Source: Oscillospiraceae bacterium
GTDB lineage: Bacteria; Bacillota; Clostridia; Oscillospirales; Oscillospiraceae
Assembly (NCBI GenBank): GCA_017515345.1
Contig: JAFWFZ010000028.1
Coordinates: forward strand, 1 to 64,000
Direction: 5' to 3'
Length of the DNA: 64,000 nt
The notes below the pieces were generated by a model. That model was not told where the DNA came from. It did not search any database and saw only the letters and a list, made by a program, of their open reading frames with translations. This document shows positions 39,785 through 42,830 of the stretch, piece by piece; the first letter of the stretch is position 1, and each line of letters begins with the position of its first letter. A program made the position numbers and the translations under genes.

Positions 39785-40516
39785 GTGAGTGAGCTGCAAA
39801 GCTGCTTCAGACGCTATGAGAAAAAATATCTGCTTACACAGGAGCAGTACCGCGCCGTGAAGCGCGGCATGGCCCCGTTTATGAAGCCGGACCCGCATCC
39901 CCGATACACTGTCTGCAGCGTCTATTACGACACCGGGCATTACGATCTGATCCGTGCGTCGCTGGAGAAGCCTGTCTACAAGGAAAAACTCCGGCTGCGC
40001 AGCTACGGCGTGCCGGACGGCCGTGATCCGGTGTTCGTGGAGGTCAAGAAAAAATACGACGGCGTGGTCTACAAGCGCCGCGTCACGATGGCAGCCCAGG
40101 ATGCGGTGCGTTATCTTGAGGGCGCGCGGAACGGCGACGGCAGCCAGATCGGCCGTGAGCTCGATTGGTTCCTGCGGTTTTACCGGCCGGAACCAAAGGT
40201 GTTCATCGCCTATGACCGGGAGGCGTACGCCTCAGCGGACGGCGGTGAGCTTCGGCTCACCTTCGACAGCGCGCTCCGCGTCCGCGCCGTCGACCTGGAC
40301 CTGCGCTCCGGCGATCACGGCGTGCCGCTTATGGATAAGGACCTGGTTCTGATGGAAATCAAGATCCCGGGCACTGCGCCGCTGTGGCTGGCACAGCTGC
40401 TTTCCGAGGAGCATATCTTCCCCGACTCATTCTCCAAGTATGGAACATACTACAAACGATTCGTGCTCGGCGGCAGATCCGCCGCAATTCGAAAGGAGGC
40501 TCTTCTAAGTGCTTGA
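39785..40516 (+). CDS. VTC domain (polyphosphate polymerase-like) protein
   Basis: A 243-residue protein with the triphosphate-tunnel fold of VTC4. The visible blocks are F-R-R-Y-E-K-K-Y, S-V-Y-Y-D-T, K-L-R-L-R-S-Y-G, F-V-E-V-K-K-K-Y, K-R-R, I-A-Y-D-R-E-A-Y and L-M-E-I-K-I-P-G, which supply the basic and acidic tunnel residues. In yeast VTC4 makes polyphosphate; in bacteria the role beside DUF4956 and CotH genes is unproven. It starts with GTG after GGAGG and overlaps the next gene by 8 bp. Expression is probably driven by the adjacent two-component system. Confidence 0.88.
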   Translation: MSELQSCFRRYEKKYLLTQEQYRAVKRGMAPFMKPDPHPRYTVCSVYYDTGHYDLIRASLEKPVYKEKLRLRSYGVPDGRDPVFVEVKKKYDGVVYKRRVTMAAQDAVRYLEGARNGDGSQIGRELDWFLRFYRPEPKVFIAYDREAYASADGGELRLTFDSALRVRAVDLDLRSGDHGVPLMDKDLVLMEIKIPGTAPLWLAQLLSEEHIFPDSFSKYGTYYKRFVLGGRSAAIRKEALLSA

Positions 40517-41174
40517 CTCGATCATTACAGGAACGGAGATCACCGTTTCCGCATTCTTCATCTGTACAGCGGTCTCGCTGGTGATCGGCCTCGGCGCCGC
40601 CGCCCTGAGCATGTACAGATCCAAGTATTCCCGCAGCTTTGTACTGACCCTGGCCCTGCTTCCCGCGATGGTGCAGATCGTCATCATGATGGTCAACGGA
40701 AATATCGGCGCGGGCGTGGCGGTGGCCGGCGCGTTCGGCCTGATCCGTTTCCGCAGCGCGCCGGGCAGCGCCAGGGAGATCGGCCTGGTTTTCCTGGCAA
40801 CTGCCGTCGGCCTTGCCACCGGCATGGGCTACGTGGTGATCGCCGCGGTCTTCTTTGTCATCATCGCCGCCGCAGCGCTGCTTCTGACGCTGACAGGCTT
40901 CGGCGCGGGCGCGGCAGACGAGCGCGAGCTCAAAATCACGATCCCCGAGAATCTGGATTACGACGGTTTGTTTGACGATCTGTTCCGGCAGTACACCCGC
41001 AGCGCGGAGCTGGAGCGCGTCAGGACGACGAGCATGGGTACGCTCTATGAGCTGAGCTACAAGATCGTGCTCCGGGACGCCCGCGGGACCAAAGACTTCC
41101 TTGACGAGCTGCGCACCAGAAACGGCAACCTGAATATCGTCTGCGGAAAGCCCGTGACGAAGGACGCCCTGTGA
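40509..41174 (+). CDS. DUF4956 membrane protein
   Basis: A 221-residue protein with four membrane segments (residues ~8-125), the conserved G-L-I-R-F-R-S-A-P-G-S-A-R-E-I block in the middle, and a ~90-residue cytosolic C-terminal domain. This family is nearly always next to a VTC-domain gene and probably forms a membrane complex with it. Start is GTG with AAAGGAGG nine bases upstream, inside the end of the VTC gene. Confidence 0.88.
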   Translation: MLDSIITGTEITVSAFFICTAVSLVIGLGAAALSMYRSKYSRSFVLTLALLPAMVQIVIMMVNGNIGAGVAVAGAFGLIRFRSAPGSAREIGLVFLATAVGLATGMGYVVIAAVFFVIIAAAALLLTLTGFGAGAADERELKITIPENLDYDGLFDDLFRQYTRSAELERVRTTSMGTLYELSYKIVLRDARGTKDFLDELRTRNGNLNIVCGKPVTKDAL

Positions 41175-41426
41175 GTCGGGCGGGAGGGCTGACGCTTCTG
41201 CTGCCCTCGGAAAGCGGCGCCGCAGCAGAGACGGCGGCGAACCTCGGGAAACCTTGGGCCCGCGTCCGCGGGGGCATGCGCCTCCGGACCATTCCGGAGC
41301 ATCCGGTTCAGCTATGGCCTGCTCCGGCTCGTCCCGATGCGGGAATGAAAAATGGCATGACCAGAAGTGCGCTCTCGCTTAAGGATCATATTGGTTTTTC
41401 GCGGCTCTTTTCCGCCGTAACTGCCT

Positions 41427-41467
41427 GACCGGCACAGGGTATCCGTCAGGATGACCCTGTGCCGGTC
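41427..41467 (+). repeat. long hairpin 1 of an inverted, loop-complementary pair
   Basis: A 14-bp perfect stem (41427-41440 with 41454-41467) encloses a 13-nt loop, 41441-41453, which itself can extend the stem by ATCC/GGAT. The loop is the exact reverse complement of the loop of the hairpin at 41544. No T-run follows. Confidence 0.75.
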
Positions 41468-41492
41468 GGCTTGTTCAGACGAAAAAAACATA

Positions 41493-41530
41493 CGAAAAAC
41501 TGCCGCGCACCGCAGCGGATGCAGTTTTCG
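41493..41530 (+). repeat. middle imperfect hairpin
   Basis: CGAAAAACTGC (41493-41503) pairs with GCAGTTTTCG (41521-41530) with one bulged A. It lies between the two long hairpins. Confidence 0.5.
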
Positions 41531-41543
41531 CGAAAGACAAGGC

Positions 41544-41582
41544 GCAGGGGCCGGATCATCCTGACGGATATCCGGCCCCTGC
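41544..41582 (+). repeat. long hairpin 2 of an inverted, loop-complementary pair
   Basis: A 13-bp perfect stem (41544-41556 with 41570-41582) encloses the 13-nt loop 41557-41569. Its stem sequence differs from hairpin 1 but the loop is its exact reverse complement, so the two behave as diverged inverted copies of one palindromic unit. Confidence 0.75.
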
Positions 41583-41825
41583 AACGCAGTATTTCACAAA
41601 TAAATGTGCCGCTGCGGCAACAGAATCCCTAAGTGAAAGCGCCCAAGGTCATGCCATTCCTGCAGGTAATAATTCTTTCCTGTGGGAGCCCATGTCCGCT
41701 CTCTTTATTTCTGCTGCAACGCGGAAGAGTTCGGGCGCTCAGCGAATGCGAAAGAGGAGCGCGCCGTCCTTTCGTGCCGTCAAATGCGTACCCGGTGAAA
41801 CGGGCAGCGTTTGTCGTTATAGTTA
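41583..41825. other. intergenic stretch without a convincing gene
   Basis: The sequence is somewhat richer in A and T than its surroundings. The only sizeable frame (41633-41914, plus) runs into the opposite gene, has no ribosome site and reads as low-complexity Arg/Ser. Confidence 0.5.
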
Positions 41826-42830
41826 TTAATAGTATTTGTGGTCCAGTTCAGCGACGGCCTGATAGAGCATCTGGTTTTTCTTCAGTGCGATCTCGTCGCC
41901 CTTGGCGCCCATGAAGAAGCCCATGAACATATAGCCGCCTCCGGGGGCCAGCATATCGAACGACTTCTTCACGGACTCATAGATCTCCTCATAAGTCACG
42001 TCGTCATCCAGCAGGCGGTCCCTGGCGTCCCAACCGCCGGCGATGACCAGCCGGTTGCCGAACTTTGCCTTCACGGCAGCCAGATCGTTGCAGGTCTGGG
42101 CGGGGTCCCACATGGTGACGCCCACTTCATTCACCAGATCGTCGAAGAAGCAGGCGGCTTTTCCGCAGTTGTGCATGGAGATGGGAAGACCCCTGTCGTT
42201 GGCGAACTTGGCCTGGCGCTTGTACAGGGGAATCAGGAACTCCCGGTACATCTCGGGGGAGATGAAGGGGTTGGCCCAGGCGGCGGTGTCGTCCATCATG
42301 GTCCACACGTCGGGATCGCAGTACTCGCCGTACTTCTCGCCGATGGTGCAGTAGAAGTCGCACAGGTAATCGAACAGCGCCTTGACCTCGTCGGGATCCT
42401 CATAGAAGGCCATGAGGCCGTTGGTGAAGCCCATAAAGCTCATGAGATCCTGGAAATAGCCCATGTGCAGGTTCATGCAGATGGCGGTGTTCTCCCGGTT
42501 GACGTTCATGCGCTTGAAGTCGTCCTTCACCATCTGCTCCCAGTCCACGCCGGAGAGATCCGGGACCTTGATCACATCGCGCCAGTCGGCGATATCCTCC
42601 AGGATGAAGTCGCTGGTCTTGGGGATGATGGCGCCGCCGGTGGAATCGGTGGGGACGTATTCCACGCCGAAGATGTCCGGGCCGCCGCCGCGGATACGGT
42701 GCTCGTTGATGATGCTGGGCTCGATCATCTTGTCAAAGGACTCGCCGAGGAAGCCCATGGTGTACGTGGGGACCCAGTCGGGCTGTTCGCCGTGGGCGCA
42801 CTTCAAAAAGTTTTCTTTTCCTGACAGCAT
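41826..42830 (-). CDS. uroporphyrinogen decarboxylase-family protein, second member
   Basis: A 334-residue UroD-superfamily protein beginning M-L-S-G-K-E-N-F-L-K-C. It has the M-H-N-C-G motif (H220, C222) at the place of the methyltransferase zinc site, D-P-x-Q-T-C-N-D and G-G-W-D in the C-terminal barrel. It is shorter than, and clearly different from, the member at 11277. No corrinoid-binding protein is near. It has its own promoter and GGAG before the ATG. A methyltransferase role is inferred, not shown. Confidence 0.8.
   Translation of the reverse strand: MLSGKENFLKCAHGEQPDWVPTYTMGFLGESFDKMIEPSIINEHRIRGGGPDIFGVEYVPTDSTGGAIIPKTSDFILEDIADWRDVIKVPDLSGVDWEQMVKDDFKRMNVNRENTAICMNLHMGYFQDLMSFMGFTNGLMAFYEDPDEVKALFDYLCDFYCTIGEKYGEYCDPDVWTMMDDTAAWANPFISPEMYREFLIPLYKRQAKFANDRGLPISMHNCGKAACFFDDLVNEVGVTMWDPAQTCNDLAAVKAKFGNRLVIAGGWDARDRLLDDDVTYEEIYESVKKSFDMLAPGGGYMFMGFFMGAKGDEIALKKNQMLYQAVAELDHKYY

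Follow-up and report, generated by a model that had tools for sequence, protein, structure and literature searches.

A probable MITE-like element family of gut Clostridia, with a fold more durable than its sequence and a main type that inserts into terminator loops

Introduction

What kind of sequence sets two long hairpins side by side with loops that are exact reverse complements of each other? The question is raised by a 64,000-nucleotide stretch of an Oscillospiraceae genome (the window), in which a hairpin with a 14-bp stem (41427–41467) and another with a 13-bp stem (41544–41582) present 13-nt loops (41441–41453 and 41557–41569) of precisely this kind. A sequence-only reading had described both hairpins and the match between their loops, all of which we confirmed in the sequence, and had offered two interpretations: an RNA in which the loops form a kissing or switch interaction, or DNA in which a single palindromic unit is present twice, in inverted orientation, the stems having changed with pairing kept. 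We find that each hairpin caps one of the two folded arms of a mobile DNA element, which is 278 bp long and non-coding. It belongs to a large family in gut Clostridia in which the fold outlives the sequence, and whose main type inserts exactly into terminator loops.

Results

The window element (41367–41644, + strand) is a dispersed repeat of 278 bp that contains no gene and is of the two-arm type termed type A below; its borders were set from the five full copies in the genome. It begins and ends with 27-bp terminal inverted repeats (TIRs) at 41367–41393 (reading GGGCGCTCTCACTTAAGGAT at the start in sister copies) and 41618–41644, which form the two sides of the terminal stem P1, and these are flanked by a 2-bp target duplication, AA, at 41365–41366 and 41645–41646. 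Between the TIRs lie arm 1 (41394–41500), a long imperfect palindrome whose 47-nt half-arms are 72% complementary, a mini-hairpin of sequence TGC-CGC-GCA (41501–41509) within the conserved motif AAAACTGCnnnGCAC, and arm 2 (41510–41617), the inverted homologue of arm 1. Hairpin 1, with the head ATCC-GTCA-GGAT, is the tip of arm 1 and hairpin 2 that of arm 2. A third hairpin proposed between them (41493–41530) does not correspond to any one part of the conserved fold, since its span crosses the end of arm 1 at 41500, the mini-hairpin and the start of arm 2 at 41510. A covariance model matched the window element over positions 1–277 of 277, asymmetrically, with 285 bits on the + strand and 153 on the − strand.

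The element occupies the loop of a predicted intrinsic terminator, the stem halves of which (inverted-repeat pair I4) read AATGGCATGACC (41351–41362) and GGTCATGCCATT (41647–41658) on the + strand. On the − strand the 5′ half (41647–41658) reads AATGGCATGACC and the 3′ half (41351–41362) reads GGTCATGCCATT and then TTTC, running into the T-run ATTTTTC, so that by sequence criteria the site fits an intrinsic terminator, a GC-rich stem and then a T-run, split by an insert. The earlier remark that no terminator T-run is present is correct for the hairpins themselves and fails for the element as a whole, which is flanked by this split stem. In the minimum free energy structure of the − strand, the terminator stem is joined to P1. 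The split terminator probably serves the leftward URO-D-domain gene at 41826–42830. The left neighbour of the element is a DUF4956 gene beside a VTC-domain gene; the VTC-domain gene and then the DUF4956 gene, which overlaps it, lie at 39785–41174 and probably form an operon.

The loop core recurs outside the window and is conserved. The genome of the window (G000) carries five full and three partial copies, the other full ones (at C32:139884, C48:8354, C7:58778 and C10:65609) being 93–94% identical to the window copy, and its copies occupy terminator-like palindromes (for example AAAAACGGCTGAGCGAA, element, AAAGCTCAGCCGTTTTTT). Full copies measure 275–282 bp. G012, a genome from a different genus within this bacterial family, holds at least 20 copies, at about 67% identity and with outer stems that are entirely different. 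The DNA interpretation is supported: the arms are inverted copies with a head of the ATCC-GNCA-GGAT type, and outer stems have been swapped wholesale between genomes with pairing intact. Covariance model matches were obtained in 107 of 400 genomes of Oscillospiraceae (53 of 106 genera) and class-wide in 40 of 391 genomes from about 15 families, counts that are lower bounds because just four candidates were scored per genome; noise in the window reached up to 17 bits, and accepted class matches exceeded 33 bits. Many contigs of G012 and of a further genome, G345, end inside element copies, and copy numbers are therefore underestimated.

The window element is most probably a copy of a mobile DNA element that is MITE-like and non-autonomous. 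It is short, multicopy and dispersed and lacks a transposase gene, TIRs are present in all full copies, and the 2-bp AA/TT target duplication is found at the window copy and at most type-A copies, some having none or a different one.

The fold common to the family comprises the TIR stem, two arms of about 107 nt and the 3-bp mini-hairpin. In an alignment of 12 copies (5 + 7) the fold contains 83 pairs, 24 of them with changes on both sides, and 97.8% of cells are paired, compared with 88% after shuffling and 39–46% when the alignment is slid. Among 36 non-redundant two-arm elements with a mean identity of 50%, aligned by fitting to the covariance model and hence biased towards it, 91% of cells are paired (38–43% when slid), 77 of the 83 pairs show double changes and the mini-hairpin pairs are unbroken in every scored member. 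Folding of single sequences, which is independent of the model, gave a mean MFE z of −10.7 for two-arm elements, in which P1 has at least 16 pairs and there are usually two to three branches, and of −9.9 for one-arm elements. The non-palindromic motifs GGTTTT and AAAACTGC are also conserved at 50% overall identity.

The mismatches within the stems bear on which nucleic acid is selected. Were an RNA strand under selection, non-Watson-Crick positions should hold far more G-U than A-C; a control drawn from the same data, the acceptor stems of tRNAs, contains 32 G.T and one A.C. In 60 two-arm elements the corresponding counts for the terminal stem are 46 and 51, a strand symmetry pointing to selection on DNA rather than RNA. 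At the arm bases the biases are mirrored, with A.C favoured in arm 1 (8:31) and G.T in arm 2 (43:7), as expected of inverted copies of one DNA unit, and a transcript of neither strand would hold both arms in the favoured mismatch state. These position-specific biases could also reflect RNA or protein contact. Among the G000 copies, 11 pairs are broken and none is compensated; when genomes are compared with each other, 28 pairs have changed, and in 23 of these both sides differ and still pair. We infer that a copy decays once inserted, whereas still-moving lineages keep the structure. Taken together with the symmetric TIR mismatches, this would mean that the palindromic structure is needed at the DNA level for mobility, with selection acting on mobility and not on any role that individual copies play for the host.

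Mutation by quasi-palindrome correction is well established, and the fold might instead be passive, with intramolecular template switching and correction at stalled forks maintaining the palindromes and generating double changes without structural selection. The strand-symmetric mismatches would suit such a process, as would the deletions between short direct repeats that seem to have removed the core in G012 (C12:16279, C13:3934 and C18:4340). We nevertheless think it unlikely: the complete lack of compensation for the 11 broken pairs in G000 indicates that palindrome correction is not fast, and the two non-palindromic motifs have been kept as well.

Considerably less probable is a structured RNA made from the locus, be it a riboswitch, an sRNA or a kissing-loop switch in which the heads pair together. 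Its attraction lies in the very strong fold predicted for both strands (relative to dinucleotide shuffles, a 331-nt region has a z of −10.2 for the + strand and of −13.7 for the − strand) and in the conservation of the mini-hairpin and arm motifs. Besides the absence of strand preference in P1 and the uncompensated loss of pairs among copies of one genome, the loops themselves speak against it. Exact head complementarity of 13 nt or more occurs in just one of 62 elements, the window copy, so homologues do not preserve the kissing or switch interaction, and we reject it. Apical loops across elements are mostly C-GNCA-G or variants of it, and other copies in the same genome combine a GTCA head with a second head that reads GACA, GCCA or GCTA. 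The exact 13-nt match is a coincidence of the window copy, built on homologous heads. Membership of a known structured RNA family was likewise rejected, as no Rfam covariance model matched at its gathering score: the window returned no meaningful match at gathering or relaxed thresholds, and the elements in 18 relative loci returned none, the matches to SRP RNA, tRNA and the S10 leader falling outside the elements.

Three types of element can be distinguished. Type A is two-armed and lies in terminator loops with an AA/TT duplication; its ends resemble GGGCGCTCTCACTTAAGGAT or AGGCGGCCTCACATAGGGAT (a pattern also written as RGGCG...TCACATAGGGAT-like). Type B also has two arms, with CGAACC/GGTTCG in its ends and borders that are often TA, and lies outside terminators. 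The one-arm type is about 160 bp long, and the 4-bp duplications seen around it are of the YTAR kind (TTAG, CTAA). Within G012 alone, two types of end (GGGCGCCCTCACTTAAGGA and GGGCGGCGCAARTTAGGGA) surround the same core, left and right being matched in every full copy read.

At its ends type B is similar to the 3′ portion of a tRNA (GGTTCGACTCCCGTCACCT, with the complement at the opposite end). Loci with this feature are L228, L232–L241, L244–L254, L408, L410, L413 and L417, several of them just upstream of a ribosome-binding site. One-arm elements with the ends GGAAGCTCTGAATAAAT appear to number about 50 or more per genome in G345 and G134 (L276–L303 and L336–L355), a figure suggested by matches to the end sequences, and many contigs of these two genomes stop inside a one-arm copy, close to the tip of the palindrome.

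The insertion target of type A was examined across many genera by asking of each reconstituted site whether it forms a hairpin, with a stem of 6 bp or more, whose loop contains the junction. This was so for 39 of 44 pooled type-A copies, with stems of up to 22 bp, compared with 292 of 1000 random points (29%), 13 of 37 type-B copies and 5 of 16 one-arm copies, the types having been set from end sequences before this test but after some flanks had been viewed. T-runs at the sites are undercounted because they often pair with an upstream A-run. At all seven full G012 sites examined, a terminator hairpin with AT flanks (for example AAAAAATACGCTGCATCTTGATGCAGCGTATTTTTT) is restored once the element is taken out together with one copy of the 2-bp duplication, and a plain, uninterrupted terminator stands at two orthologous gene junctions of sister genomes (L375 and L381).

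A terminator loop might well be a safe landing site for an insert of this kind. The self-folding element would reunite the terminator halves and add its own TIR to the stem, and we propose that this reunion by folding is the reason why insertion is tolerated; on the predicted structure, folding may keep the terminator working.

The same preference for terminator loops could be taken to mean that the insert is a host regulatory cassette, retained because it makes the terminator conditional or insulated. That is very improbable given that copies decay within a genome, that sister genomes have plain terminators at the two orthologous junctions and that type-B and one-arm copies are located elsewhere.

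As to how the MITE-like element moves, a DDE-type transposase supplied in trans would act on its ends, and the element would have moved through these paired ends with the arms assisting. The element carries different end sequences in different lineages, and these differences exceed what one transposase should be expected to tolerate, which counts against the reading. For the one-arm type a candidate parent IS can be named. At locus L373 an IS5-family transposase (NF033581, E = 4e-99) is encoded in an IS of 1150 bp with ends GGCAGCACCGCACAATTG and a CTAA duplication; a one-arm relative, L268, has the ends GGCAACACCGCACAATTG and shares with this IS both the TIR GGCAnCACCGCACAATTG and the CTAA duplication. 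From these shared ends, an IS5-like enzyme plausibly moves the one-arm subtype. The N-terminal domain of IS5/IS1182 (PF05598) is present in 2 of 14 genomes, and the IS5 link applies to the one-arm type only. No parent was found for type A: the genomes examined yielded no autonomous transposon with type-A ends, and a search between paired TIRs returned only MITEs, half elements and TIR-only remnants. Plasmid and phage collections contained no match to the element, and viral contigs searched by end patterns gave none or chance matches only, the type-A patterns producing one chance match to a phage.

The palindromic arms with their conserved apical loop (mostly C-GNCA-G) recall hairpins read by HUH enzymes, but a hairpin-recognised single-stranded DNA element of the IS200/IS605, REP or PATE kind is scarcely credible here, and REP/RAYT or PATE membership was rejected, in view of the long TIRs and 2-bp duplication, PATEs having neither TIRs nor target duplications (PMC3119063).

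Discussion

The family behaves like a MITE, with a candidate parent IS for one subtype only, and departs from this pattern in combining a conserved fold with variable ends and in its terminator-loop target. QMITE2 of Coxiella and MITEAba12, which are moved in trans by an IS, are likewise short, non-coding and multicopy, with TIRs, a target duplication and stem-loop folding (PMC10969869, PMC6382973); what sets the present family apart from them is a two-arm core conserved in structure across many genera, terminal sequences that vary and the occupation of terminator loops by type-A copies. The SMR-A small mobile repeats of Haloquadratum resemble type A in being short, in having TIRs but no known mobiliser and in entering palindromes, but they are archaeal, about 110 bp long and without target duplication, and they target the near-terminal palindromes of IS605/PATE elements where type A targets terminators (PMC3119063). 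Site-specific insertion within a palindrome is shared with the REP-palindrome ISs ISPsy8, ISRm22 and IS1397, although these are autonomous and specific for the repeat sequence, whereas the target here is a terminator hairpin of any sequence (PMC1525189). The IS5-family IS at L373 (NF033581), for all the TIR and CTAA duplication it has in common with L268, encodes a transposase and has no arms. We found no description of this two-arm element family of Clostridia in the open-licence PMC literature.

A wider proposal, which we put forward tentatively and consider possible rather than probable, is that the family is class-wide and that its conserved unit is the multi-arm DNA fold and not the ends, so that it travels with different transposases; the main type would reside in terminator loops, where the fold rejoins the terminator and the insertion is silent. 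The family is of interest as what would be a common but undescribed contributor to the intergenic structure of gut Clostridia, one that is missing from Rfam, and as a case of a mobile element conserving structure rather than end sequence. It also provides a natural experiment on how much the loop of an intrinsic terminator can accommodate, about 280 nt in this instance.

Some loci depart from the intact form. Remnants of 33–50 bp consisting of ends only occur at the three G012 positions given above (L186, L188 and L195, respectively), all in terminator loops, and at C47:27080 of another genome (G001; L358); they are consistent with loss of the core by deletion between short direct repeats. At L158, L163 and L166 (G012 contigs C24, C25 and C29) a second palindromic insert (GAAGAGGCGATAAACGCTGCGCACTG... 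/ ...GTGCAGCGTTTATCGCCTCATC) lies within the core. Finally, the terminator at L383 (G228 C106) is a perfect palindrome with a central GGGCGCCC that resembles two joined element ends, and this central sequence could be an excision footprint or a product of chance.
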